Positions 29,798 to 44,035 of a DNA stretch of 64,000 nt are shown piece after piece. The DNA comes from an uncultured Kangiella sp. (lineage in GTDB: Bacteria > Pseudomonadota > Gammaproteobacteria > Enterobacterales > Kangiellaceae): the NCBI GenBank assembly GCA_950096615.1, contig CATNCP010000001.1, forward strand, positions 1 through 64,000, read 5' to 3'. A program made the position numbers and the translations under genes. The notes under the pieces were generated by a model. It was not told the origin of the DNA and did no database searches. It saw only the letters and a list, made by a program, of their open reading frames with translations. How positions within the stretch are numbered: the first letter of the stretch is position 1; each line of letters begins with the position of its first letter.

Positions 29798-29822
29798 AAA
29801 AAAGCCAGCTCGAAAGCTGGCT
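29798..29822 (-). terminator. Rho-independent terminator downstream of S8 protease 1
   Basis: GCCAGCT-CGAA-AGCTGGC, followed by a T tract on the minus strand. Confidence 0.7.
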
Positions 29823-29878
29823 CGTAAGAATAAAAAGACCGTCCCTGGCTAAAAGCCTCCCACTGGAGATTTAAATTC

Positions 29879-32371
29879 TTAATTAGTTTGCGACAAGTAG
29901 TAACGGCTCATTGCTACTGCAAAGTCTGCGCGGCTCATTAACTCTTGTGGAGAGAAGTGAGCAACAATAGTCGGTTCTAGGTCAAACGGTCCTTGCTCAA
30001 CGCTAAAACTAACTCCAAGAACGCCGCGGTCAATCGCATGCTGTACATAGTGCTTTAGACCTTCTGGGATGCTATCTTGGTCCGCGATTACGACTCGCTC
30101 GTCACCAAATGTTGCTGTTACATTCGTGCCATCATAGCTTGAGTCAACGCCTTCTAAACCTAGTGACTGCATTAATGAATAAGCCACATCAAGCTTGCTC
30201 ACCTTGCCTTTCGGGTCAAATGTTGAACCACTAGCAGACATTACTGGAGCTTGTTGTTGTGCACGGTCTTTTAATGCGCCACCCGTCTGCGTCACAGCGT
30301 TGACACTTGCTGAGTTAGCAGTTTTGACGTCAACAAACGTTTTATCCGCAGCGTCGTTCGATTGACGGATACCAGCACCTAATGTCAGGAAGTCAGCCAT
30401 TTCAGCACGAGTTAATAAACGATCTGGCTTGAAGCCGTTGGCAGTACCATCAACCAACTGCTCGCTTACTGCATGCTCAATGAAACCTTGCGCTGGATGC
30501 CCTACAACATCGTCTAGACCGACAAAACCATCTGTGCGAATCATTTTGATATTCGCTTGGATGGTACTAGGAGCACCGTAACCGTTAGTAACGCCAGCTG
30601 GGTCTAGAGCTACGCCTGATACAGAACCCACACCGCCTGCTTTGATGACCCACTCACCTGGCTCACCTGGAGCTACTACCGCGATGTTCTCGCCTAATAC
30701 TGGTAACGCAATGCTAGAACCATAACGCTTACCTGAAGGGCTGGTTAGGGTCAGGGCAACCGTATTATCTGAAACCTGAGCACTCGCCATAACCAATGAA
30801 ATATCACTGTCTACGTTGAATGGAGTTCCTGGGTTATCACCCACAGGAGCAAAAGGAACGCTGGTTGGAAAGTCACGCGCTAAAGACGTTAGTGAAGCTG
30901 CGTTAAAATCGCGATTAACCTTCGTGGTTTGACCGAAATCTTGGCTTTCTTCAAGCACCGCTTTTACCGCGGCATAAGCGTTTACATAACCCGCACCAGC
31001 TTCCCATGGCTCTAGGCCAGGCATGTTAGTAGCAGTATTTTGAAGAATGCGTTTGACGTCACTCCAGTTTAGCGAAGGGTCTGCTTCTAACATCAAAGCA
31101 ACCACGCCTGAGATATGTGGTGCTGACATTGAAGTACCACTTGAATGCGTATAGTAAGGAACTTGCGCAGGTGGTAATAAATCAACATCATCAGTGATGC
31201 TTAACCAAGATGTACTACCTAGCGACGCACGTGCTGAAGCAATATCAACACCTGGTGCAGTAATCGTTGGGCGATCAACCCACTCATAAGTTTCACCGTC
31301 TACCTCAACAGTGCCGCCCTTGCCTTTCACACCACGTGAACTAAAGTCAGCTAAGTTACCGTCTTTATCGCCTGCTGCAACAGTGACAACCCATGGTGCT
31401 TTTTTGAAGTTACCTGTAATAGTACTTTCGCCGTTTCCTGAGTTACCTGCTGAGAACACAACGATGACACCGTTATCGCTTAATCGCTTAGTAATAACGT
31501 TTGTCGGATCGTCTGGATTAAAGTCTGTACCCACATCGCCCGTATTACCGAAAGAGTTTGAAATCACACGAATGTTGTATTCGAATTGATGACTTAGTGC
31601 ATAGTCGAAGCCACCTAACGTATCAAGAATGAATAGACCAGCGCCTGAGCCATAACCAATGATTTTAGCACCAGGAGCAACGCCTTCTTGCTCACCACTC
31701 GACATGCTACCGTTACCGCCAATCGTGCCTGCTACGTGAGTACCATGGCCACCGGCAATATCGGTATTCGCAATATTTTCTTGATAAGTAATTGGAGCGA
31801 GATCGCTAAATGAGCGTAAGTTTGTTTGTGCTAACACGTTTTGCACAACGTGATTAGGGTATTTTAGGTCTGGGTGAGTACCGTCTACACCAGAGTCATT
31901 AACGACAACACCAATACCACGGCCTGAGAATGGCATGCCTTGGTTGCGTAAACTGCTGTCTGCACGCAAGCGATCCACACCTGTGATTTGTGTAGCGCCT
32001 TGATTGTCATAAGTGAGTTCAGAGTTGTGCCATACAGAGCGTACGTCATCACGTGAATAAATCGCATCGATTTGTGATTTAGTAGCAAGAAGACCAACAA
32101 TTGGAACATTCTGCAAGCTGACTCCAGACGTAACGCCTAGTTGCTCTAGTGCGTTTAACTGAAGAGGCGTCGCAGGACCTTCACCTTCAAAAGTTACAAT
32201 GACCTCAAACACTTCAGCTTCAGATGCTGTTGGAAGCATTTCGCTTAATTGAGGACCTAATGATTTTGCTGACAAGCCTAAAGAAGTTACGCCAAGTCCC
32301 GCTGCAAGCATCGCTGCTTGTAACGGCTTTGATTTAAATAATGATGTTGTTTTCATGTTTTGTCTACCCAT
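29879..32371 (-). CDS. Secreted S8 subtilisin-like protease 1 with C-terminal SLH-like repeats
   Basis: Triad motifs VVVNDSGVDGTHPDL, GGHGTHVAGT, SGTSMSAPHISG; C-terminus DDVVGHPAQGFIEHAVSEQLVDGTANGFKPDRLLTRAEMADFL and two related segments. Start ambiguous (32371 or 32356). Confidence 0.9.
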   Translation of the reverse strand: MGRQNMKTTSLFKSKPLQAAMLAAGLGVTSLGLSAKSLGPQLSEMLPTASEAEVFEVIVTFEGEGPATPLQLNALEQLGVTSGVSLQNVPIVGLLATKSQIDAIYSRDDVRSVWHNSELTYDNQGATQITGVDRLRADSSLRNQGMPFSGRGIGVVVNDSGVDGTHPDLKYPNHVVQNVLAQTNLRSFSDLAPITYQENIANTDIAGGHGTHVAGTIGGNGSMSSGEQEGVAPGAKIIGYGSGAGLFILDTLGGFDYALSHQFEYNIRVISNSFGNTGDVGTDFNPDDPTNVITKRLSDNGVIVVFSAGNSGNGESTITGNFKKAPWVVTVAAGDKDGNLADFSSRGVKGKGGTVEVDGETYEWVDRPTITAPGVDIASARASLGSTSWLSITDDVDLLPPAQVPYYTHSSGTSMSAPHISGVVALMLEADPSLNWSDVKRILQNTATNMPGLEPWEAGAGYVNAYAAVKAVLEESQDFGQTTKVNRDFNAASLTSLARDFPTSVPFAPVGDNPGTPFNVDSDISLVMASAQVSDNTVALTLTSPSGKRYGSSIALPVLGENIAVVAPGEPGEWVIKAGGVGSVSGVALDPAGVTNGYGAPSTIQANIKMIRTDGFVGLDDVVGHPAQGFIEHAVSEQLVDGTANGFKPDRLLTRAEMADFLTLGAGIRQSNDAADKTFVDVKTANSASVNAVTQTGGALKDRAQQQAPVMSASGSTFDPKGKVSKLDVAYSLMQSLGLEGVDSSYDGTNVTATFGDERVVIADQDSIPEGLKHYVQHAIDRGVLGVSFSVEQGPFDLEPTIVAHFSPQELMSRADFAVAMSRYYLSQTN

Positions 32372-32415
32372 TTAGTAATTCCTAAATGAGCATGCCATGA
32401 AACCAGATGACGTGG

Positions 32416-32434
32416 GTATCGGGGAAAACCCCTA
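32416..32434 (-). promoter_or_regulatory. GGGG-N4-CCCC element upstream of S8 protease 1
   Basis: Minus strand TAGGGG-TTTT-CCCC-GATAC; matches the elements upstream of S8 proteases 2 and 3. Confidence 0.65.
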
Positions 32435-32494
32435 GAAATATTGCCGTTACTACCTAGCTAAAGAGGTAAGACCAATAAGATTGAAAAATTTTCT

Positions 32495-33130
32495 TTAAAT
32501 CAATAGCTTATGTTGCGCAGCATACTTCACTAACTCAGCAGAATTAGCCACGTTAAGCTTGTCTAATACCTTACCTCGATGGTTTTCAGCAGTTTTAACA
32601 CTAATATCGAGAGCTTTAGCGACTTCTTTAGTAGTTTTACCATCGACCACAAGGTGAAAAACTTCACGTTCGCGCTTGGTTAAGTTCTTGTAGGGGTCGC
32701 TCCATTTGTCTGGCTGTGTGTATTGATTAGCCAAAACTTGAGCAGCATATTGGCTGTAGTAACTTTTCCCACTAGCCAATGTCTTGACAGCTTGGATTAA
32801 CTCCTCGCTGGCACTATCTTTTAATAAATAACCGGAAGCTCCAGCACGAACCATGTGAATCACATACTCTTCCTCTTCGTGCATGGTTAGTACTAAAATC
32901 CGGCAATCAGGTAGCTTTTGATGAATACGCTTCACTACTTCCATGCCATTTAACTCAGGCATACTAATATCGACAACCGCAATCTGTGGTTCAAGCTCAA
33001 ATGCTTTCTCAACGGCCTCAATACCATTGGAAGCTTCCCCAACAACCATGCAATCATCATCTTTAGCCAGGATACTGACTAAGCCTTGCCTTAAGATAGT
33101 ATGGTCATCGGCTAATAGCACTCGGATCAT
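32495..33130 (-). CDS. NarL/FixJ (LuxR-HTH) response regulator
   Basis: 211 aa; receiver residues LLADDHT, VVDISMPELNG, YLLKDSA; HTH LTKREREVFHLVVDGKTTKEVAKALDISVKTAENHRGKVLDKL. Confidence 0.94.
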   Translation of the reverse strand: MIRVLLADDHTILRQGLVSILAKDDDCMVVGEASNGIEAVEKAFELEPQIAVVDISMPELNGMEVVKRIHQKLPDCRILVLTMHEEEEYVIHMVRAGASGYLLKDSASEELIQAVKTLASGKSYYSQYAAQVLANQYTQPDKWSDPYKNLTKREREVFHLVVDGKTTKEVAKALDISVKTAENHRGKVLDKLNVANSAELVKYAAQHKLLI

Positions 33131-33132
33131 AG

Positions 33133-33861
33133 TTAGTTACTCCCCACTAGTAACATCTTAATTTCGCTGCCCTCTCCAAGCTTTGATTGAATCATTAGCT
33201 GCCCCCCAAAGGCAGCAACACGATCTTGCATCGCAGACAAACCAAAACCATCTGGTCCTAAAGCTTTTTCAGTATCCATGCCAACACCATCATCTATAAC
33301 TTTGACCATTAATAAACTCGGCTGTGAAACGACTTGCACACTGATGTGTTCGGCTTCTGCATGTTTAATCGCATTGGTAATGGACTCCTGCACAACCCGA
33401 AAAACCAATGTTTGGGTTTCCCCATCAAGCTCATGAGCTAACTGGGCTTCTAATGTAATATCGGCTTTTTCTTCTTCGCGCATAACGCGCGTTAACCATT
33501 TCAGCGCCGGCTCTAATCCCAAATCATCCAAAATTCTAGGACGCATCAGGCGCGAAATTTTTCGTGTATCGCTTAGGGCTTGTCGCGCTAACTCTAAACT
33601 ATCCTGCAGGCTCTTCAGAGTCTCATCAGACACATCCTCTTTTGCCGTCAACTCAATTTGATTGATTAATGCAGTTAGTAGTTGCCCAACCCCATCATGC
33701 AGTTCACGAGCAATATGTTTGCGCTCATCTTCTTGTACACGCCAAACACGCTTAGCTAAGCTGCGCATTTGAGTATTCCCACTGGCCAGATTTTCTGCAA
33801 TCTGACTTTGCTTAAGACTTAATGCATCAAGCATCTTGCTTATCTCATCACTCTTTGTCAT
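33133..33861 (-). CDS. Soluble HisKA_3-type histidine kinase
   Basis: ERKHIARELHDGVGQLLTAL, QESITNAIKHA, IDDGVGMD; no TM segment; probable start MTKSDE overlaps the upstream kinase gene by 14 nt. Confidence 0.9.
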   Translation of the reverse strand: MTKSDEISKMLDALSLKQSQIAENLASGNTQMRSLAKRVWRVQEDERKHIARELHDGVGQLLTALINQIELTAKEDVSDETLKSLQDSLELARQALSDTRKISRLMRPRILDDLGLEPALKWLTRVMREEEKADITLEAQLAHELDGETQTLVFRVVQESITNAIKHAEAEHISVQVVSQPSLLMVKVIDDGVGMDTEKALGPDGFGLSAMQDRVAAFGGQLMIQSKLGEGSEIKMLLVGSN

Positions 33862-36800
33862 TAATTTGCTCCATGAAAAGGTCAACTTGCGGTTGACCGT
33901 CTGAAAAATAACGTCCTTGCAATGAAATAAGGTGCTGCTGTTGTTGCTCAGATAATTGTTGTTTTAATTCGGTAAAGCTCTTTAAGGCTTTTAATGCGCT
34001 ATCATTGGCTTTTTCTGAGTTTTTTATCATGCCGTAATAAATACTTTCTAACCGCTCTATTTGATAATTTCTCCAATAAGTACCAACGCCTCGCTTCAGC
34101 ATAACAAGTTGGTCTAGTACAGTTTTTAGGGACTCATCATCACCCTTTTGAGCATGAAAGAATCCTAAAAGAATGAGCTTCCTAAGTAAGTAGTAACGAT
34201 GCAAGTCTAGATCGTATTGGTCAAACTTCTGACTGACCTCGACAAACTCATCCCCAGTATTCTCTTTATTCGCTGCATTATTGAATAACAATATTTCTAA
34301 CTGATGGACTAAACTTTCCAACGCGGCTTTCGACGTGACCTGCTCGAACTTCTGCTCAGCGGTAGTCTCAGTCTCCTCGCCTCGATATAAACTCAGTCTT
34401 GAATCCAAGGTGTTATATATAAGCTGTTGTGAACGATTTTTTTCCTGCTCCATCAATGGTGTAAGCTCGGTTAACATCGACTCAGCTTGTTGGTATGCAC
34501 CAGTTGAAATATACCAATCAGTTAACCACAAACTGAACTCCACTTGCCCTCGGACATCTTGGCGCTGTTTAAGCTCGGCTTTAATATCTGACAACTGTAG
34601 TGGCGGTTGCTCAAAGTTGCCTTGTATAAAAGCAATTTTGGCTAAGTAAGCCTTTGAAACTATGGTTTCTTCGGTTAGGTTCAACTCTTCAGACTTCTCT
34701 AAAGCAGACTGATACATGCGATACGCTGACTGCCAGTTACCTTTTTGTAGCTCAAGCTGCGCCATATTCTCATTAACACGAACCACACCTACCGGGTCAT
34801 CAACCTTTTCGTAATAAGCTTTAGCCTGTTCCCAATAAATAGTCGCTTGCTCTTCATCAGAGAGTAAAAAGAAAATATAGGCGACGTTATTAAGACTTTC
34901 AGCCTTTAGCCAATCGTCATCAAGCTTCATTCGGATACTTAATGATGCTTGAAAGTGCTCTAATGCTTTCGAGTATAGTCCTTGCTCCTCCGCGATAACC
35001 CCAAGCTCGTTAAATAGATCAGCTTGTTTGATAGCATCATTTCTCGTTTCGTTTGTTTCCAATGCTTTAAGCAAGCTTTCTTCTGCTTTATGGTACTCGC
35101 CCTTTACCGCGTAAACAGACGCTAAGTTAGAGAGGCTGGTAACGACCCCACGCTTATCATCCATTTTTTCACGAGCAGTTAATCCCTGCTGGTAATAATC
35201 AAGCGCTAAGTCCAACTGGCCTAGCCGGTGATGTGCGACACCAAACGCGTTAAGTACATCGCCTTGCAACTGAGTGTTTTTGAGCTTTTTCGCGGTTACC
35301 AGGGCTTTTACTAAATAGTTATCAACGGCTTCCTGAGTCTCGCCCTGCCAGATGGCGACTTTAGACAGTTCATACCATGCAATAGGATGATTCTCATCGT
35401 TTTCGACAACAGTGATTAGCTCTTGCTTGGCGGTTTCCAGAGACTGCTGCTCGATAAGGAGTTGTGCTAGCCCCAAACGTGTATCACTATTATTCGGAAG
35501 CTGTTGTAAAATACTACGATAAGTCTCGATTGCCGCGTCAATATCGCCAGCAAGCAACTGCAACTCTGCTTGAGTCTGTTTACGAACCAGTGAATTCTCT
35601 GGTGACGTTTCCATGGCCTTTTGCAACGCAGATTCAGCCTCTAAAACATTCCCTTTCGACGCTTCGAGTTGACCGAGTAATAGCCAGCCTTTACTGTATT
35701 CAGGCTCCGTTTCTAACAATATCTCTAGTTGTTCTTTTGCTCTGCCACCCTCGCCCTTTTGTAGCAAAGCTTCTACGTCGGAAATAGCTTCAAGACTGAT
35801 ACCTTGAGGAAGGTATGACTCTGTATCAAGAGACTCTAATCCAAACTGGTTATTCACAGCAGTGACCAATGAAGAAAACTCTTGAGCTAACCCTTCTTTA
35901 CTCGATTGAAACTGAATAATGTCCGACGTCTCAACAGTGTTTCCAGCTACACGAATTAACTCCGCATTAACTTGATACTGACTAGGGCCAACCGGAACTA
36001 GCTTGGTGTTAAGTAAATAAGAGCTTTGCGTAAGGTCACTAATAACTTTTAGCTTTTGTTGATCTAACGGTGTTTGATAACCGAGTAAATCCATGGTTTC
36101 TCGCGAGCGCTCATAACCAACGATTCGTAGCTCAGAGATTTGTGAAAGCTCATCGGAAAGCAAGTGTGGTAAACCATCAGTCAGCCAAGCTTCCGTGGAC
36201 TTAGTGTCGAAAGGCAACACAGCCAACGACTGTAGGCCCTCTTGTTGTGCCACAATCGACTGCTCTGAAACTATCGACTTATCTCCACGAAAAAGGTAAA
36301 TCCCTGCAGCCACCAAAACTAAGACTACAGTAGCCACGCCAATGGCAGTTACTGTAGAGTTTCGTTTAGGGCTTTTATCTGAACTGGATTTAATCAACTG
36401 TCTTACTTCTAAAACAGTTTTTGGCCTGGAGTCAGCTAAAGGCGCGATACAATGCTGTACAACCTTTTCATATTGAGAAAAAGCTTTCTCAAGCTTAATG
36501 TTTTGTGATTGGAGCTTCTCTTTTATCAGTTCTGCTTGTGTTTGGGCCTGATATGGTAACTCTTTTGTAATCAGCTCATAAAGAATCAACCCAAAAGCGT
36601 AAATATCAATCGAGGCTGCTGCTTTACCAGACTCAAGGTATTCTGGTGGCGAGTATAAGGGTGTTCCTGTAATGACAGCGGAGGCTTGGTCGCCTACGGC
36701 GCTAGCGATACCAAAATCAGCAATATAAAGGTGATCATCACTATCTATAAGAATATTGTCGGGCTTAAGGTCTTTGTGACTAATCCCTTTAGACTCTGTA

Positions 36801-37243
36801 ACTTCTAGCGCAGACAGTATCTGTTCTATAAAGCCATTAAGTGTCTCTTCCTTGACCTTATGCTGTTCTATACAGTCTTTAAGCGTATCCCCTTGGATCC
36901 AGTCCATAGTAATAAAGTGCGTATTATCATCTTCATAATACTCATGGACGCGAACAATATTGGGGTGGGACAATTGTCGCAGAGTCAGGATTTCGTTCTT
37001 AAATACTCGTAAAGAGTCATCCGATACCAGGTGTGCGTGAAGAACTTTAATGGCGACATCAGAATCAAGCTGTAGATCAGTAGCTTTGTAGACGCAACCA
37101 AAGCGGCCGCAACCTTGCAGGGATTGAATTTTAAAGCGCCCCACCAAAACAGAGTCAGTCTCGAGGGTCGCTGGCTTGGATAATACTTGTGTTTCTTTTA
37201 ACGAATCGGACTTAGTATTTTTATCTAAGTCATCATGCCCCAT
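33848..37243 (-). CDS. Ser/Thr protein kinase - TM - TPR protein
   Basis: 1131 aa; kinase VAIKVL, SHKDLKPDNILI, IADFGIAS; TM TVTAIGVATVVLVLVAAGIYLF; FlgO/TolB-like segment SLAVLPFDTKSTEAWLTDGLPHLLSDEL; many TPRs. Confidence 0.92.
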   Translation of the reverse strand: MGHDDLDKNTKSDSLKETQVLSKPATLETDSVLVGRFKIQSLQGCGRFGCVYKATDLQLDSDVAIKVLHAHLVSDDSLRVFKNEILTLRQLSHPNIVRVHEYYEDDNTHFITMDWIQGDTLKDCIEQHKVKEETLNGFIEQILSALEVTESKGISHKDLKPDNILIDSDDHLYIADFGIASAVGDQASAVITGTPLYSPPEYLESGKAAASIDIYAFGLILYELITKELPYQAQTQAELIKEKLQSQNIKLEKAFSQYEKVVQHCIAPLADSRPKTVLEVRQLIKSSSDKSPKRNSTVTAIGVATVVLVLVAAGIYLFRGDKSIVSEQSIVAQQEGLQSLAVLPFDTKSTEAWLTDGLPHLLSDELSQISELRIVGYERSRETMDLLGYQTPLDQQKLKVISDLTQSSYLLNTKLVPVGPSQYQVNAELIRVAGNTVETSDIIQFQSSKEGLAQEFSSLVTAVNNQFGLESLDTESYLPQGISLEAISDVEALLQKGEGGRAKEQLEILLETEPEYSKGWLLLGQLEASKGNVLEAESALQKAMETSPENSLVRKQTQAELQLLAGDIDAAIETYRSILQQLPNNSDTRLGLAQLLIEQQSLETAKQELITVVENDENHPIAWYELSKVAIWQGETQEAVDNYLVKALVTAKKLKNTQLQGDVLNAFGVAHHRLGQLDLALDYYQQGLTAREKMDDKRGVVTSLSNLASVYAVKGEYHKAEESLLKALETNETRNDAIKQADLFNELGVIAEEQGLYSKALEHFQASLSIRMKLDDDWLKAESLNNVAYIFFLLSDEEQATIYWEQAKAYYEKVDDPVGVVRVNENMAQLELQKGNWQSAYRMYQSALEKSEELNLTEETIVSKAYLAKIAFIQGNFEQPPLQLSDIKAELKQRQDVRGQVEFSLWLTDWYISTGAYQQAESMLTELTPLMEQEKNRSQQLIYNTLDSRLSLYRGEETETTAEQKFEQVTSKAALESLVHQLEILLFNNAANKENTGDEFVEVSQKFDQYDLDLHRYYLLRKLILLGFFHAQKGDDESLKTVLDQLVMLKRGVGTYWRNYQIERLESIYYGMIKNSEKANDSALKALKSFTELKQQLSEQQQQHLISLQGRYFSDGQPQVDLFMEQINDKE

Positions 37244-37303
37244 TAATCTGCGCTCCTGTGGCTAATAGCCCAATATAGTAGTTTTCAGGAAGTACGACTA
37301 ATA

Positions 37304-38203
37304 CTAGTGTACTGCTAATATTTGCTCTTTAATTGGTTGTTGTTCGGCAAATATATGTTCCGGAATATTACTCAATATAGCAGATATTTCGTTTTGTAAA
37401 ACAATAGCTTCCGAATTTATTTTAATTTGTTCAGAAACTAAGTTGAGGATTTCTAGATCAAGCTCAGTTAAAACCTTATTCGCTTCTTTACTGTCGGTAT
37501 AAACCACTCCAACTAAATTGTTATCAGCCAGCAAAGGAATGCAAGCCAACGCCGCTATCTGCTTACGTTGAATGCTTTCTCGCGACGCCAATAAGTGGTC
37601 TAGCTTTACATCCATAGCAAGCACAGGGCTGCGTTGCTGCAGTGCTCTTTGCATCGCACCGACACTCCCTTCAAAAGATTTACTATGAAAGTCTTGGTGT
37701 GACATACCTTTGGCCGCACAAACAGTTAGAGCCTCAGGTGAATTACCCAGCATAACTAAGCCACGCTGAGTTCCAGTTAGGTTTAGCAGCGAATACAGTT
37801 GCTCATCTAACGCATCAAGTAAGGATTGGCTAGCAAGCTCGTTATATGACTTTCTAGATTGCTGTATACGCCATTCATTATGAGCATCTATTGAATCTAG
37901 TTGCTGTTTGGTTTTCAGCTCAAACAAACAATCAATTTCACCCAATGAAATAATATCGTTTGAAGACAGTTGACCATCATCGATCACTTGTCCGTTTATT
38001 CGTACACCATTTGAACTTAAACCATCTTTCAAATACCAGTGTTCTCCACGAGCATTCACTAAGGCATGCTTTCTGGACACACTAGGGTGATTAAGCCTGA
38101 CCTCACAATCATGGTCTCTCCCGACCTGATACTGTGAGTTTTCAAAAAGAACGCTTTCCTTAGCCGGCAAATCAGGATAACAAGCTGTTATTCTGGCTGG
38201 CAT
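37304..38203 (-). CDS. FHA-GAF domain protein
   Basis: 299 aa; FHA YQVGRDHDCEVRLNHPSVSRKHALV...LKDGLSSNGVRINGQ; GAF-like ALACIPLLADNNLVGVVYTDS. Confidence 0.85.
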   Translation of the reverse strand: MPARITACYPDLPAKESVLFENSQYQVGRDHDCEVRLNHPSVSRKHALVNARGEHWYLKDGLSSNGVRINGQVIDDGQLSSNDIISLGEIDCLFELKTKQQLDSIDAHNEWRIQQSRKSYNELASQSLLDALDEQLYSLLNLTGTQRGLVMLGNSPEALTVCAAKGMSHQDFHSKSFEGSVGAMQRALQQRSPVLAMDVKLDHLLASRESIQRKQIAALACIPLLADNNLVGVVYTDSKEANKVLTELDLEILNLVSEQIKINSEAIVLQNEISAILSNIPEHIFAEQQPIKEQILAVH

Positions 38204-38218
38204 AATCTCAACACCTCA

Positions 38219-39049
38219 TTAATTAATCAAACGTAAACTAAAGCGAAGAGTATTTGCTAACGCCATCAACTCACCTGCTACGTTGTCAATATCGCGGCTC
38301 GAACGCCATACGTCTGGAATATCTATGCCTCTAGCAGCCTCAACCAGTTGTTTGAACTCATTCAACTTGCTGCTGGCTTGCACATAATTTTGCAGAGTAA
38401 TTGACTGTTGAACTTCTGTTAACTTTGAATTAAGAGAAGTGTATGTCGCTGAAGACATTTCCGAAGAAAAGCCGCTTAAGGTTGAGCTTAAGTTATTCAT
38501 CTTAGTGTTCACAACTGTAGTCGGTAACCTAAGATCTGCCAAAATCAAGAACTGCGAGAATTTTCCGGTGGTACCACGAGCACGATAGCTGCCCGAGCCC
38601 ATAGTCATAGTAATATCTTTAAACTGACCACCCAATGGTGCTTTGAACAACCTTAGTGGTGTACCAGCGGTATACTCTAGGTTATGAGTATGAATATCAA
38701 CCGTAACTAATCCTTCAAACGATAAGCCTTGGCCTGAAGGCGGCTCAACGGTAATTAGCATTGGAAATGCCGACAGAAGATTGGTATCAAGACTTGATGG
38801 TAAGCGATTTAGGATATTGAGATTAGTAATATCAATAACTTCAGCAGTTAACCCTATACTGTTTTCATTTAAACCAATGGCATTCTCAAAACTGATGGTA
38901 AAATCGGCTTCGATGCCCCCAGCCAGTTCAATAACTGCTTCAACTTTCTTCCCTCCATTGACGGTTAATTCAACCGGTGAACTATGCGCACTCATAAAAA
39001 TACCGCACGAAACAATGGTAACCGCTAAGCGGCTAAGGAAATTTGACAT
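38219..39049 (-). CDS. Secreted protein of unknown function
   Basis: 276 aa; signal peptide, beta-rich N-terminal half (GGIEADFTISFENAIGL), helical C-terminal half. Confidence 0.6.
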   Translation of the reverse strand: MSNFLSRLAVTIVSCGIFMSAHSSPVELTVNGGKKVEAVIELAGGIEADFTISFENAIGLNENSIGLTAEVIDITNLNILNRLPSSLDTNLLSAFPMLITVEPPSGQGLSFEGLVTVDIHTHNLEYTAGTPLRLFKAPLGGQFKDITMTMGSGSYRARGTTGKFSQFLILADLRLPTTVVNTKMNNLSSTLSGFSSEMSSATYTSLNSKLTEVQQSITLQNYVQASSKLNEFKQLVEAARGIDIPDVWRSSRDIDNVAGELMALANTLRFSLRLIN

Positions 39050-39180
39050 TATGGACCTCCAGTGAGCTAAAAGCGCTCTTTACTACTCAACAAAACATTA
39101 CTTTTAGTAATAAAGAACATGTCATCAAAATACTTTTTTTTAACTCTTATTGCAACAAGTTCTTACTCTTTAAAACGAAC

Positions 39181-39210
39181 AGTAAAGCAGGGGCTATCCC
39201 CTGCTTTACT
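39181..39210 (-). terminator. Strong hairpin downstream of S8 protease 2
   Basis: AGTAAAGCAGGGG-CTAT-CCCCTGCTTTACT, 13-bp perfect stem 16 nt after the stop. Confidence 0.65.
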
Positions 39211-39225
39211 TTGTATAACAATAGC

Positions 39226-41691
39226 TTATTGGTAATAGCTATCGTAAGTTCTAGCTATGATTACTGCATACTCACCACGAGTAATTGTGTTTGATGGGTT
39301 AAAACGAGCAACCAAGGTTGGTTGTAAGTCAAATGGACCTTGTTCTACGTCAAACTCAACATTCAATAGTGATAGGTTTAAGGCAGCTTGTACGTGTCCA
39401 CGTAACTCAGCTGGTATAGAGTCTTGGTCGACAACAGTGATAGCCTGGCCATTATACTGAACGGTAATATCACCCGTATACTGCTCTGCTTCTGCTTGTA
39501 AGCCTAGAGTTTGTACTAATGAGTAAGCTAAATCCGCACGATTAACCGTAGCACTAACATCAAACTCTGAACCAGCAGTTCTGACCACAGCGTCTTGCGT
39601 TCTCTGAGCATCTTTAAGAGCTCCCGCTGGCGCGCTCACAGCTTCTGCGAAAGCCGCATCACTACCCGTTACATCAGTAAAGTTGATGCTTGGCTGGTTT
39701 AATAAGTCACGGTATTGTCTCACCGCAGCGCCCATCACTAAGTACTTCGACAAGTCACCCTTATTCAGGTCAGCGTCCGGCAAGTAGTTACCGCTAGCAT
39801 TTCCATCAACCAGGCGCTCACTGACTGCAAACTCAATAGCGCCCTTAGCTGGGTGACCGTTGATATCGTTTAGGCCTTCATAGCCACCAGACTCAATCAA
39901 TGTTATCTCACCAGAAATGATTTCAGGAACACCTGGGCCGTTAGTAATGCCGAGCGGATCAGGCTCTACACCTGAAAGCGAAGTCATACCATAACCTTCG
40001 ATACTCCAGATTCCTTGTTGGCCAGGAGCTGAAACACGCATAGCAGTGTCTAATACTGGTAGTGTTAAGTTACCGAAATACTCGGTACCGTCTGGTGCCG
40101 TTAGTTTTAGCTTGGTTGTATTTGCTAAATTTTCAGCTGATGCAGAAACAAAGGCCACATCGTTACCCACATAAAACTCATACTCATCAGGATTACCCAC
40201 AGGGATGTAGTTAACCGTGAATGGAATCGGCTCATCTGAAGGGATTAAAATTGCGTTAGCATTAAATTCATTAAGGTTGTTAACCGTAACGTCATAATCA
40301 GTGTCAAAGCTCAAAGCCGCAGCCACTGCTGCTTCCGCGTTAACGTAACCGCCACCAACTTCCCAAGTTTCATAACCTGGCATGTTTGTGGCTGTTTCCA
40401 TCATTAATTGTTTAATTTCTATTGGCGTCAAGTTTGGATTCGCTTCCAACATAACGGCAGCGATACCCGCAACGTGTGGCGTCGCCATTGAGGTACCAGA
40501 AATCATGGTGTAGTAAGGAAGATACTCAGCTTCGATAGCGTCCACATCATCTGCGCCGCCGTTTGAAACTACGTTAGTTTTAGCGCGTGTTGAAATAATA
40601 TCGACACCTGGAGCGACGATAGAAACTTCATTTTTATAAGTCCACTCTTCGCCATCAGGCATAGTGAAAGTACCCTCTTCACCTTTTTTACCACGTGAAG
40701 AGAAGTCAATCAGAGTGCCGCTCTTTGTACCAGCACCAACCGACATGCCCCAAGGGATTTGAGAATATGGGTTGTTAGTATCTTCACCTGGACCAGAGTT
40801 ACCAGCAGCGAACACCGACAACATGCCTTGCTTGTAAGCAATGTAAGATGACACTGAAATTGGGCCATCCGGCTCATACTTACCGCTTGAACCCCACGAG
40901 TTACTCATGATGCGGATTGGGCTGTTGAAATCATATAGGTGAGTCAAAGCGTAATCATAGCCGCCTAGTGCGTCTAAGATCGATAGGCCTGCGCCTGAAC
41001 CATAACCAACCAGATCCGCGTCTGGCGCTGCTCCTTTATGTTTACCATCAGAGTGCGCCCCTGTACCTGCAACCGTACCTGCACAGTGAGTACCGTGACC
41101 AACATTAAGGTCAGTATTCAGCTGATCTTCAATCCAAGTACCGCGTACTGGTGTTAAAGTTAACGCTTGCGCGTGAGTGATGGCTTGAACGTTTTGCACG
41201 ACTTTAGTCCCAAACTCTAAGTCATCGAGAGTCGCATCGATACCAGAGTCGTTGACCATAATCGTTACGCCTTTACCAGTGTACGTTGTTCCGTTCAATG
41301 CTCTGAACTCATCATTTTGCACACGGTCAACACCTGTAATGACTCGTGACTCAGCGTTAAAATACTCTAAGCTACGATTAGCAAACACAGAACGAACGCC
41401 ATCTAGTTGAGCAATTGCCTGGATTTGTGCAGGCGTCGCTTGAACACCGACGATAGGTAGTGATTGGAATTGCACGCCTTCGCTAAGGCCAAGGTTTAAT
41501 AATTGTTGCATTTGGCTACTGTTAACTTTGTCCATTTGATCGAAAGTTACAACGGCCATAACTGAATCGGTAGGATTTAAATTCGAAAGGTTTTGTTGAA
41601 GATGACTACCAATAACGGCGTCAGCTGCAGCATTAAGACTAAAACCTGCTAACGCAGCAGATAAAGCCAATTTTGATAAAGATTTATTCAT
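39226..41691 (-). CDS. Secreted S8 subtilisin-like protease 2 with C-terminal SLH-like repeats
   Basis: Triad motifs TIMVNDSGIDATLDDL, VGHGTHCAGT, SGTSMATPHVAG; C-terminus parallels protease 1. Start MNKSLSK preferred (GGAG 9 nt upstream); the track start at 41706 is GTG. Confidence 0.9.
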   Translation of the reverse strand: MNKSLSKLALSAALAGFSLNAAADAVIGSHLQQNLSNLNPTDSVMAVVTFDQMDKVNSSQMQQLLNLGLSEGVQFQSLPIVGVQATPAQIQAIAQLDGVRSVFANRSLEYFNAESRVITGVDRVQNDEFRALNGTTYTGKGVTIMVNDSGIDATLDDLEFGTKVVQNVQAITHAQALTLTPVRGTWIEDQLNTDLNVGHGTHCAGTVAGTGAHSDGKHKGAAPDADLVGYGSGAGLSILDALGGYDYALTHLYDFNSPIRIMSNSWGSSGKYEPDGPISVSSYIAYKQGMLSVFAAGNSGPGEDTNNPYSQIPWGMSVGAGTKSGTLIDFSSRGKKGEEGTFTMPDGEEWTYKNEVSIVAPGVDIISTRAKTNVVSNGGADDVDAIEAEYLPYYTMISGTSMATPHVAGIAAVMLEANPNLTPIEIKQLMMETATNMPGYETWEVGGGYVNAEAAVAAALSFDTDYDVTVNNLNEFNANAILIPSDEPIPFTVNYIPVGNPDEYEFYVGNDVAFVSASAENLANTTKLKLTAPDGTEYFGNLTLPVLDTAMRVSAPGQQGIWSIEGYGMTSLSGVEPDPLGITNGPGVPEIISGEITLIESGGYEGLNDINGHPAKGAIEFAVSERLVDGNASGNYLPDADLNKGDLSKYLVMGAAVRQYRDLLNQPSINFTDVTGSDAAFAEAVSAPAGALKDAQRTQDAVVRTAGSEFDVSATVNRADLAYSLVQTLGLQAEAEQYTGDITVQYNGQAITVVDQDSIPAELRGHVQAALNLSLLNVEFDVEQGPFDLQPTLVARFNPSNTITRGEYAVIIARTYDSYYQ

Positions 41692-41772
41692 AGTATCTAG
41701 CTCCACTTGGATTATCGATAGTTATCGTTGTTATTAATATTTATTATTTGACCTGAGAATAGATACATTTGG

Positions 41773-41791
41773 AATGAGGGTTATCCCCTAC
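41773..41791 (-). promoter_or_regulatory. GGGG-N4-CCCY element upstream of S8 protease 2
   Basis: Minus strand TAGGGG-ATAA-CCCT-CATTC. Confidence 0.55.
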
Positions 41792-41843
41792 ACCAACGGC
41801 TCCATTTGCCCCAAAACCGTATAAAACGTGATCAACATCACAT

Positions 41844-41867
41844 AAAAAAGGGCCCGAAGGCCCTTTT
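41844..41867. terminator. Bidirectional rho-independent terminator downstream of S8 protease 3
   Basis: AAAAAAGGGCC-CGAA-GGCCCTTTT. Confidence 0.75.
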
Positions 41868-41882
41868 GATTACCGCTAAATG

Positions 41883-43946
41883 TTAGTTTTGTACCAACTT
41901 AGATAGGGTCGTATTGATACGGTAATTGGTTAAAACACTAGCGTATCCGTTAACACGAAGCGTGTAATAACCAGCTTCATTAGGAGAATAACCAATAACT
42001 TCAGGGTTACCCAAAGTCGCGCTCGAAGCAACCGACTCACCATTTGGATCAATCAGCTCATAATCCAAATCAGCAACACCTTCCCAGCTTAGGTCAGACT
42101 CTATAAAAGCGACTGAGTCATCAGCAAAGAAACGGAAGTCTTGAGTCTGAACGTTTTCAGCTGATGGGCCAATCGTCCCTTCAACATAAAACTCTTCTGT
42201 CACCACAGACATGCCGTTATCGATTAACTGACCGTCAACTTTCAACGCATCAAGGTTAATTTTGCCTTCAACATGACGTAACTCTACAGAGTGAATGTCT
42301 TGCGCTGATAAATCACGAACGGCAAAGCTGCGTGTTTCTGGTGTTTGGCTGTAGAAATCAACGATTCCATAGCTGCGACCATCAACCAATAACTCACCAC
42401 GCCCGCCTTTATTGTTCGCTTGGTAAACGATTTGCATGCTCTCGCCCATGAAGTCGAACATCGCTTTAGAGCCACGCTTTTTAGTTTGCAGGAACGAACC
42501 GCCAAAGCTCTCGTTTGAGTTAACCAGTTTCCAGCGTGACGTATAGTCAATATTAGAATCTGACTGATCAATGTTGTTCCAAATACCTTGGCTTGACCAT
42601 GCCGTAGAACCGTTCATGAAATCTGCACGAACGCCTTGCGTATTACGTGCTAGCTCAACAGCAGCTTTAACGTTAACGTAACCATCACCTACTTGGTGGA
42701 AGCTGTAGCCAGGCATATCATCAGCAGATTCGCGGATAATGTCTTCAATCTGATCAGGAGACAAGTCTGGATTAACTTCTAATAACAATGCCGCAACGCC
42801 AGCAATAAATGGCGTAGCCATTGAAGTACCGCTCATACCTGCGTAATGAACGTGATACTCAGGATAGTCAGGCTCAAGTACTGGACCAAGCACTGGCAAC
42901 GGAGTATTGATTGCGCGGGTAGAGATAATATTAGAGCCTGGAGCAACTACGTCAATATGCTTGAACGTATCGTCTTCTACGCCACGGCTCGAGAAATCAG
43001 TGAGTTCTTTTTCAGGATTACCCGCACCAACATTAATCACCCATGGAGCAATCGCATAAGGGTTAATTGTGTCGTCGCCCGGGCCATCATTACCAGCTGC
43101 GAACGCAACAACCATACCTTTTTTGTAAGCTTCATAAGACGCTTGGTTAATCGGGTTATTTGGATCAAAAGCACCGCCGCCGCTTGCACCCCAGCTGTTT
43201 GTGATAATATCAATATCTAAACGCTCACGATTTGCGATTGCGTAGTCGAAACCACCGATTGAGAATAAAATTGAGATGGCTTCACCAGCACCTAAACCCA
43301 CGATATTAGCGTTTGGTGCGATACCATCATGATAGTTTGCACGACGTGTATCCATCGCTGAAGCAGCACCAGAGCCAGCAACCGTACCTGCTACGTGAGT
43401 ACCATGACCTGAGCTCGTATCCGTATTTGGAATACCTTCTAAGAAATAGTTACTACCGCCTAATAAGTCTAAATCGCCAAGGATTTTCACATTCTCAACA
43501 ACTTTAGAGCCCATTGGTAGATCTTGGTGAGTCGCATCAACACCTGAATCAAGAACCGCAACTGTTACGCCTTGACCAGTCACACCTTCAACGTCATGAA
43601 CATAATGACCGCCAGTAATTTCGCCAGAAGTATAGTTGTAATACTTAAGTGGCTTGTCGTAATAAATACTTTTTACGCGCTCATCGTTAGACAAATTCAT
43701 GATTTGCAGCTTATTAAGCGAGGCTCCAGCCATCGGCAAAGCCTGCATGCTCAAGTAAGGAGCATTCACTTGTAACATCACAGAATCTAAATCACTTCTG
43801 TCATGTGTCGTAATAATTACTTTTTTATTATCAAGCAGGTTTGGCAGCATTTGTTCTAGATCTGGGCCAATGATTGCGTCCGCTTGAGCACCCCCAGCTA
43901 ACGCCGTTAATACACAGGCAGAAAGCATTTTAAATTTAGTATTCAT
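41883..43946 (-). CDS. Secreted S8 subtilisin-like protease 3 with PPC-like C-terminal domain
   Basis: 687 aa; VAVLDSGVDATHQDL, SGHGTHVAGT, SGTSMATPFIAG; C-terminal DLDYELIDPNGESVASS...GYYTLRVNGY. Confidence 0.9.
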   Translation of the reverse strand: MNTKFKMLSACVLTALAGGAQADAIIGPDLEQMLPNLLDNKKVIITTHDRSDLDSVMLQVNAPYLSMQALPMAGASLNKLQIMNLSNDERVKSIYYDKPLKYYNYTSGEITGGHYVHDVEGVTGQGVTVAVLDSGVDATHQDLPMGSKVVENVKILGDLDLLGGSNYFLEGIPNTDTSSGHGTHVAGTVAGSGAASAMDTRRANYHDGIAPNANIVGLGAGEAISILFSIGGFDYAIANRERLDIDIITNSWGASGGGAFDPNNPINQASYEAYKKGMVVAFAAGNDGPGDDTINPYAIAPWVINVGAGNPEKELTDFSSRGVEDDTFKHIDVVAPGSNIISTRAINTPLPVLGPVLEPDYPEYHVHYAGMSGTSMATPFIAGVAALLLEVNPDLSPDQIEDIIRESADDMPGYSFHQVGDGYVNVKAAVELARNTQGVRADFMNGSTAWSSQGIWNNIDQSDSNIDYTSRWKLVNSNESFGGSFLQTKKRGSKAMFDFMGESMQIVYQANNKGGRGELLVDGRSYGIVDFYSQTPETRSFAVRDLSAQDIHSVELRHVEGKINLDALKVDGQLIDNGMSVVTEEFYVEGTIGPSAENVQTQDFRFFADDSVAFIESDLSWEGVADLDYELIDPNGESVASSATLGNPEVIGYSPNEAGYYTLRVNGYASVLTNYRINTTLSKLVQN

Positions 43947-44007: not shown

Positions 44008-44026
44008 GTATTGGGGGAAACCCCTA
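44008..44026 (-). promoter_or_regulatory. GGGG-N4-CCCC element upstream of S8 protease 3
   Basis: Minus strand TAGGGG-TTTC-CCCC-AATAC. Confidence 0.65.
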
Positions 44027-44035
44027 GATAAGAAC

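Follow-up and report, generated by a model that had tools for sequence, protein, structure and literature searches.

A conserved Ser/Thr kinase and two-component gene core next to secreted subtilases in Kangiella, with a predicted operator before the protease genes

The locus between positions 29879 and 43946 of the window (the whole 64,000-nucleotide stretch of DNA from an uncultured Kangiella sp. that was analysed) probably encodes a Ser/Thr-kinase-gated two-component system that times the secretion of costly proteases, through a predicted operator and a proposed FHA docking step. A broader reading, which we hold with only a little more confidence than doubt, is that this is an undescribed co-inherited system. 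Here, a secreted ZU5-like protein and a TM-TPR Ser/Thr kinase, with an FHA-GAF adaptor in between, would do the sensing for a sensor-less histidine kinase/NarL-type regulator pair, and a predicted dedicated operator would mark a dispersed regulon of secreted subtilases. Eukaryotic-like and two-component signalling would thereby be hard-wired together, in place of an occasional cross-talk. Most examples of such cross-talk come from Gram-positives and mycobacteria, where the interactions are scattered and unlinked, whereas the Ser/Thr kinase and two-component genes described here form one unit kept across a wide range of gammaproteobacteria. How a Ser/Thr kinase instructs a two-component system becomes a directly testable question, since the genes form one encoded unit with an operator predicted and a regulon that is small and defined. 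If true, it would explain how protein-degrading marine bacteria decide when to release their extracellular proteases, which is part of protein turnover in the sea. A first-pass annotation of this DNA knew of no named system of such composition; none was found here either, and a literature search gave no paper combining FHA, GAF, Ser/Thr kinase, TPR, response regulator and operon.

The locus carries eight open reading frames, all on the minus strand and free of frame defects, in the transcriptional order S8-1, S8-2, DUF6689, FHA-GAF, Ser/Thr kinase (STK), histidine kinase (HK), response regulator (RR) and S8-3. Pfam assigned Peptidase_S8 to three of them and DUF6689, FHA + GAF, Pkinase + TPR, HisKA_3 + HATPase_c and Response_reg + GerE to the others, in agreement with the eight minus-strand genes of the first-pass annotation. 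Its description of the catalytic motifs as intact was also borne out for the subtilases (D/H/S residues in the three S8 proteins), the STK (VAIK, HKDLKPDN and DFG, in a non-RD kinase), the HK (H-box ELHDGVGQ and N box, with H63 and the N box invariant in the alignment) and the receiver (phospho-acceptor Asp). The SLH domain of S8-2 and S8-3 is an addition to that description. The features, in the direction of transcription, are:

44012..44028, minus strand: operator-like site TCTAGGGGTTTCCCCCA, 5' of S8-1, kept in orthologous promoters
41883..43946, minus strand: S8-1, secreted subtilase, 687 aa, intact catalytic triad (Pfam Peptidase_S8)
41775..41792, minus strand: operator-like site TGTAGGGGATAACCCTCA, 5' of S8-2
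39226..41706, minus strand: S8-2, secreted subtilase with SLH domain, 826 aa (Pfam)
39181..39210, minus strand: 13-bp hairpin, terminator- or attenuator-like, 3' of S8-2, between S8-2 and the core
38219..39049, minus strand: DUF6689, 276 aa, with signal peptide, ZU5-like beta domain and C-terminal helices; first core gene (PF20396)
37304..38203, minus strand: FHA-GAF, cytoplasmic, 299 aa, phosphothreonine-binding residues conserved (Pfam, alignment)
33848..37243, minus strand: Ser/Thr kinase (cytoplasmic)-TM-TPR (predicted periplasmic), 1131 aa (Pfam, alignment)
33133..33861, minus strand: soluble HK, HisKA_3 + HATPase_c, about 242 aa from the ATG (Pfam, alignment)
32495..33130, minus strand: RR, NarL/DevR/VraR-type, 211 aa (Pfam; nearest solved structures DevR, VraR and NarL)
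32421..32436, minus strand: operator-like site TCTAGGGGTTTTCCCC, 5' of S8-3, the sole exact match to TAGGGGNTTTCCC in the window
29879..32371, minus strand: S8-3, secreted subtilase with SLH domain, 830 aa (Pfam)
29802..29823, minus strand: terminator-like hairpin 3' of S8-3

The probable start of the HK is the internal ATG at 33861, which its orthologues also use; the reading frame reaches 33885 with a TTG. Regarding transcription, there are probably four units (S8-1, S8-2, the core and S8-3); a single operon was discarded because every one of the three subtilase genes has an operator-like site to itself and hairpins separate the units.

The core consists of DUF6689, FHA-GAF, STK, HK and RR, in invariant order on the same strand, with DUF6689 always the first gene. 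Complete cores were counted in 40 loci, which belong to Kangiella, Colwellia, Pseudoalteromonas, Pseudidiomarina, Alteromonas, Marinicella, Pleionea, Woeseiaceae and Lysobacteraceae. Conservation of the neighbourhood had been set beforehand as the check on the original proposal, and the conservation observed in these 40 loci goes far beyond chance. STK identity falls to about 22-25%, and the catalytic residues of STK, HK and RR and those of the FHA phosphothreonine pocket are kept throughout. The STK and HK genes overlap (median spacing −26 nt), and in no core locus compared was the HK-RR pair separated from the STK and FHA genes. Lysobacteraceae and Woeseiaceae retain the core and lack subtilases of the S8-1/2/3 type, and no such protease was found anywhere in the genomes of these S8-less cores. 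By comparison of sequences, the five-gene core is shown to be one conserved unit, accompanied by S8-1/2/3 subtilases in marine gammaproteobacteria, and the subtilases appear as its lineage-specific marine output; their inclusion as a defining component was dropped.

Among Kangiellaceae, the S8-1/2/3 family occurs in 13/13 genomes with the core versus 0/27 without it. S8-1 orthologues are confined to core-bearing genomes (Kangiellaceae), and in almost every marine locus with the core S8-2 is the gene immediately 5' of DUF6689. Moreover, 14 of 394 genomes of the order were S8-2/3-positive and all 14 carried DUF6689. Counts over carriers are not independent, since these are related to one another.

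The promoters of the S8-1/2/3 family share a 16-bp quasi-palindrome, cTAGGGGWTTTCCCC, found in 52 of 68 of them (mean 0.08 and maximum 2 in dinucleotide shuffles) and absent or degenerate before the minority. It preceded other reading frames in 6/306 cases, all six in the intergenic region shared with S8-2. Across 20 Kangiella genomes, the 12 carriers held 38 matches, 32 of these in promoters of this family, versus two matches in total in the eight non-carriers. The motif also precedes unlinked subtilases in Pseudidiomarina (S8-3 and S8-1-like), Pseudoalteromonas lipolytica (S8-1 family) and Colwellia sp. C1TZA3 (S8). This common DNA tag suggests that the regulator of the core switches those proteases on or off, and the quasi-palindrome is its predicted operator. 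Not every protease would be controlled, since the further subtilase genes of the window's own genome have no motif in front, and a regulon of all subtilases was rejected. A motif before DUF6689 was also rejected as a general rule: it lies about 166 nt upstream in genome G682 (core present, no S8-2/3-family protease), the only clear case, with Dokdonella and Rudaea suggestive and the others at or below the shuffles. Autoregulation is not general, as most lineages with S8 genes showed no motif in front of DUF6689.

The HK and the adjacent RR form a two-component system of the NarL/FixJ type by their domains and motifs. MctS-MctR was the best NCBIfam match, below the curated cut-off for both (RR 199.6 of 300 bits, HK 145.8 of 700). 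The first-pass annotation had proposed a phosphorelay, which was not borne out: the locus sequence contains neither an Hpt domain nor a hybrid receiver, and the system is a one-step HK-RR pair to which a Ser/Thr kinase and an FHA protein are joined. As the HK has no sensor domain and no membrane segment, it would have to receive its input from partner proteins. The FHA domain has the residues of a phosphothreonine reader (GR, SxxH and the S/N loop), with G28, R29, S43, H46 and S63 unchanged across 21 aligned sequences. The STK N-tail carries a conserved Thr at about residue 18-20 in a TQ..L/I motif, present in the compared kinases except that of Pleionea, and this Thr is a candidate FHA docking site. 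Pfam found no PASTA domain in the STK, with TPRs in its place, and the PknB/Stk1 PASTA model reached 203 of 450 bits.

In the proposed circuit, the periplasmic TPR part of the STK, probably together with the secreted ZU5-like DUF6689, would read an envelope or extracellular cue. The STK would autophosphorylate its N-tail Thr and perhaps also phosphorylate the HK or RR; FHA-GAF would dock on this phosphothreonine and set the activity of the HK, and its GAF domain would add a second input from the cytoplasm. The soluble HK would then phosphorylate the RR, which would bind the NarL-like inverted repeat TAGGGGN4CCCCTA (7-2-7-like) and control the protease genes, most likely as an activator. We infer the signal, the direction of control and the order of phosphotransfer; nothing in the sequence shows the envelope stimulus first suggested. 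The earlier idea of control over protease output gains support from the operator-like sequence shared by the proteases, unlinked ones included, but the proteases do not define the unit, as the core persists without them.

Other explanations could account for this arrangement. It is unlikely, although worth considering, that control of the proteases via the operator is the work of the RR and HK while STK, FHA-GAF and DUF6689 are a separate pathway, for instance in cell-envelope or peptidoglycan homeostasis, merely co-transcribed. STK-PASTA kinases serve the cell wall in other bacteria, and the S8-less Lysobacteraceae and Woeseiaceae would fit, as part of the core must act otherwise where these subtilases are absent. 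However, the HK without its own sensor, the STK/HK gene overlap and the linkage of HK-RR to STK and FHA in every locus compared argue against this. Somewhat less probable still, the palindrome could be the site of another regulator, with the core only sensing protease-related damage or nutrients and the RR targets lying elsewhere. The motif is assigned to the RR from sequence, and most loci with S8 genes showed none in front of the core; on the other hand, it is nearly absent from core-less Kangiella genomes, it accompanies proteases to unlinked sites in core-bearing ones, and its inverted-repeat geometry is what a NarL-type dimer would be expected to bind.

It is very improbable that the cluster is an accident of a genomic island or serves in anti-phage defence. 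PADLOC models for a kinase and a subtilase match, and the locus is distributed patchily: core-less Kangiella have a clean empty site at the corresponding position. These matches, however, cover generic kinase and subtilase domains only, for which reason defence was rejected; for the anti-phage kinase systems PD-T4-6 and MADS there is likewise a generic kinase-domain match and the partner genes are absent. Furthermore, the proteases are secreted, the gene order is kept despite very divergent sequences, and the edges in Kangiella are PilZ-TatD and acyl-CoA dehydrogenase genes, without mobile genes.

Concerning known systems, DevR/DosR of the mycobacterial DevR/DosR-DosS system (with PknH) is among the closest to the RR by sequence, and is a NarL-type regulator with both His-kinase and Ser/Thr-kinase input, as proposed here. 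Its operator is a GGG...CCC palindrome. In Mycobacterium, the STK lies outside a shared operon, the HKs have GAF sensors of their own and dormancy, not proteases, is what the regulon concerns; a partner of the FHA-GAF or DUF6689 kind is not known there. Phosphorylation of DosR by an STK is documented, and it is inhibitory (PMC12919924). VraR, from the VraSR/LiaSR systems with Stk1 in Firmicutes, is among the nearest solved structures to the RR. These systems pair a NarL-type RR with a HisKA_3 kinase, respond to the envelope and have reported STK cross-talk. VraS and LiaS are membrane kinases with the PASTA STK encoded elsewhere, whereas the present HK is soluble and the STK has TPRs. In Myxococcus, an FHA domain reportedly connects Ser/Thr kinases (PktA5/PktB8) to the histidine kinase EspA; unlike in the present locus, the FHA is fused to the HK, the RR is different and no subtilase regulon is known, and the similarity to the present FHA is 24 bits only. 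In the actinobacterial PknG/PknB-GarA and OdhI systems, the FHA protein docks on a phosphothreonine near the kinase N-terminus, as may occur here at the STK N-tail Thr, but GarA and OdhI are regulators of 2-oxoglutarate metabolism without a GAF domain.

For the S8 proteins, the best NCBIfam match was the T7SS mycosin, below the equivalog cut-off (65-113 of 278 bits). Secreted subtilases are abundant in Kangiella, where a tandem S8A protease cluster has been reported (PMC6000758), a likeness to the present locus in genus and protease type. The text of that paper describes no two-component system, and by its description the cluster appears to be another locus (cf. contig C21 here).

Finally, the "unknown secreted protein" of the first-pass annotation matches PF20396 (DUF6689, E 3e-100). 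A sequence search against the PDB gave no match. Its AlphaFold2 model (pLDDT 90, pTM 0.85) resembles ankyrin ZU5A-ZU5B in Foldseek (probability 0.97-0.99, E 2e-3, TM-score about 0.3, ~13-16% identity), which suggests a secreted ZU5-like protein with a helical part. In comparison with ZU5 domains (ankyrin, UNC5, PIDD), the beta domain ends with an invariant F-S, which resembles the HFS motif, although DUF6689 is bacterial and secreted. The position equivalent to the His of HFS holds K/D/Q/N/R in the alignment, and PIDD-like autoproteolysis was rejected for this reason. A role as dedicated inhibitor of these proteases is not favoured, since cores occur without them. The literature search returned no paper on DUF6689, and the regulatory role proposed here would be the first for this family.

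The locus at 29879-43946 lies in the 2.57 Mb genome of a Kangiella-like bacterium, and the eight open reading frames proposed for it in the first-pass annotation are real, intact and all on the minus strand. Each was assigned to a Pfam family, and the order of transcription is S8-1, S8-2, DUF6689, FHA-GAF, Ser/Thr kinase-TM-TPR (STK), His kinase, NarL-type regulator and S8-3, where S8-1 to S8-3 are secreted subtilases. The product previously described as an unknown secreted protein is identified as DUF6689 (PF20396, E 3e-100 in Pfam). The catalytic signatures, said to be intact, are canonical throughout, except that the Ser/Thr kinase is of the non-RD type (HKD). Two of the proteases carry an S-layer homology (SLH) domain according to Pfam:
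Window 39229-41706, minus strand: S8-2, SLH domain
Window 29882-32371, minus strand: S8-3, SLH domain
This domain may tether both proteases to the cell surface; its presence in gammaproteobacterial secreted proteases was unexpected to us.

Concerning conservation, full-length orthologues of STK are present in 12 of the 20 genomes of the genus and in one genome of another genus of the same family (G400). The neighbourhood is retained in all of them, apart from the loss of S8-2 in one Kangiella genome (G388) and a lone S8-3 beside the core in G400. Scanning 85,462 species genomes with a DUF6689 profile yielded 36 loci, the named ones including K. taiwanensis, K. spongicola and K. aquimarina, of the same genus as the window. 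Two distant genomes, reached through DUF6689 alone, present an identical gene order with an STK about 25% identical to that of the window. Profile searches of all ORFs together with gap statistics gave 40 complete same-strand cores (DUF6689, FHA-GAF, STK, His kinase, regulator), with median gaps of 15, 32, -26 and -4 nt from 5' to 3'; this core order is conserved among relatives. S8-2 is immediately 5' of DUF6689 in almost every marine lineage, and the placement of S8-3 varies: it may be downstream, upstream, convergent on the opposite strand as in Alteromonas and Planctobacterium, or unlinked as in Pseudidiomarina. Cores without such a protease, either nearby or anywhere else in the genome, occur in Lysobacteraceae, in Woeseiaceae and at two additional MAG loci. 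Hence the unit consists of the five core genes, and the subtilases are a putative output particular to some lineages. One Kangiella subclade (L040, L041, L043, L044) has an extra membrane-like protein of 132-133 aa between the regulator and S8-3, and an M16-like peptidase of about 950 aa 5' of S8-1.

Strong matches (>380 bits) to A3, the S8-2/S8-3 profile, were found in exactly the 13 STK-carrying Kangiellaceae genomes; the 27 that lack STK scored 118 bits at most. Across the order, the S8-2/3 family occurs in 14 of 394 genomes, all 14 with DUF6689, and two more have DUF6689 without the family; the genomes are related, hence these counts are not independent trials. In one genome with DUF6689 and no S8-2/3 family (G533), congeneric with one that has both proteases (G302), the core order is unchanged. 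In core-less Kangiella, the TatD and acyl-CoA dehydrogenase genes that flank the block adjoin or nearly adjoin, which marks the block as a discrete gain or loss.

Promoter alignment revealed a consensus common to the subtilases, cTAGGGG(A/T)TTTCCCC.ATA, mostly centred 30-120 nt 5' of the annotated starts. Of the 68 promoters of the S8-1/2/3 family, 52 contain its strict form (dinucleotide shuffles: mean 0.08, maximum 2), and several of the others have degenerate versions. At these loci 306 regions upstream of ORFs outside the family were compared; six match, each belonging to a gene that is transcribed divergently from S8-2 and so has the S8-2 intergenic region as its own. An additional half-site (TAGGT) is seen about 21 nt 5' of the site in some promoters of S8-1 and S8-3. 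Among 20 whole Kangiella genomes, TAGGGGNWWWCCCY has 38 matches in the 12 core-bearing ones, of which 32 are by position in S8-1/2/3 promoters, one is elsewhere in the G388 locus and five are at other places, a number close to the background given by a reversed control pattern; the eight core-less genomes have two matches. In the G388 locus (L036), TAGGGGGAAACCCC persists between the S8-1 and DUF6689 genes although S8-2 is gone.

The simplest reading is that the site would be bound by some factor of the core. Since the NarL-type regulator is the only DNA-binding protein there, it is the probable binder of this putative operator. The 7-2-7 inverted-repeat geometry of the site suits NarL-type dimers, and the solved structures nearest to the regulator are DevR, VraR and NarL.

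On the input side, the His kinase lacks both a sensor and a membrane segment and has invariant H and N boxes; the phosphothreonine-holding residues of FHA-GAF do not vary either. The otherwise unconserved N-tail of STK keeps a conserved Thr in the compared kinases except Pleionea. In marine lineages this residue belongs to a TQ-type motif, which Leu or Ile often follows, and in Lysobacteraceae to a TxTG motif. The Thr recalls the actinobacterial cases in which an FHA domain docks on the tail of a kinase. DUF6689 is confidently predicted (pLDDT 90, pTM 0.85) as a beta domain with C-terminal helices; the former could resemble the ankyrin ZU5 fold (Foldseek, high probability, weak TM-score), and no sequence relative was found in the PDB. 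A cue might thus pass through DUF6689 or the TPR domain to STK, FHA-GAF, the His kinase, the regulator, the operator and finally the subtilases. Comparative evidence bears on the steps from the regulator onwards, and the earlier ones are inferred. The effect of STK could be activating or inhibitory; DosR, for instance, is restrained when phosphorylated by an STK (PMC12919924), and other STK-regulator pairs are documented in PMC4478028 and PMC6010298.

The component families are all known, and no curated system corresponds to the whole. None of the locus proteins reached the NCBIfam equivalog cut-offs, PADLOC returned generic kinase and subtilase matches only, and a literature search found no description of such a system, in agreement with the earlier statement that no named system has this composition. 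A 2018 Kangiella genomics paper covers tandem S8A proteases and no two-component system. The locus is therefore rated as a two-component system into which a Ser/Thr kinase, a secreted partner and FHA-GAF, as the putative adaptor, are probably wired, and whose predicted regulon consists of proteases.

The site also precedes proteases that are not linked to the core. In Pseudidiomarina, S8-3 and a protease resembling S8-1 are encoded at a distance from it, and both have a site whose centre is 65-72 nt 5' of the start. A search for the site pattern in 31 core-bearing genomes led to unlinked proteases with the site in the promoter in Pseudoalteromonas lipolytica (S8-1 family, 680 bits) and Colwellia sp. 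C1TZA3 (S8, 430 aa). The site was absent before the remaining subtilases of the window's own genome, which include the following:
L048:6984-13644, contig C21: further tandem subtilases
L049:6347-10973, contig C19: further tandem subtilases
On contig C19 the surroundings are T6SS-like, with a further Ser/Thr kinase and an FHA protein close to the subtilases.

Other genes preceded by such sites are the following:
L169:1594-2115 (G398) and L185:900-1418 (G388), two Kangiella species: lipoprotein of 172-173 aa, no Pfam family, TAGGGGAAAACCCT 94-97 nt upstream
L186:1-1488 (G682): TonB-dependent receptor (Plug domain), TAGGGGTTTTCCCT 27 nt before the ORF
The lipoprotein is a possible fourth target. 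The same 14-mer as TAGGGGAAAACCCT is found once in G386, off the locus. G682 has the core, no S8-2/3-family protease and a site about 166 nt 5' of DUF6689; its receptor is a possible alternative target. In Dokdonella (L083, L085), the region 5' of DUF6689 contains two G-run/C-run palindromes at a spacing of 21-22 nt, above shuffles (p about 0.005-0.015), which suggests a diverged operator acting on the core itself.
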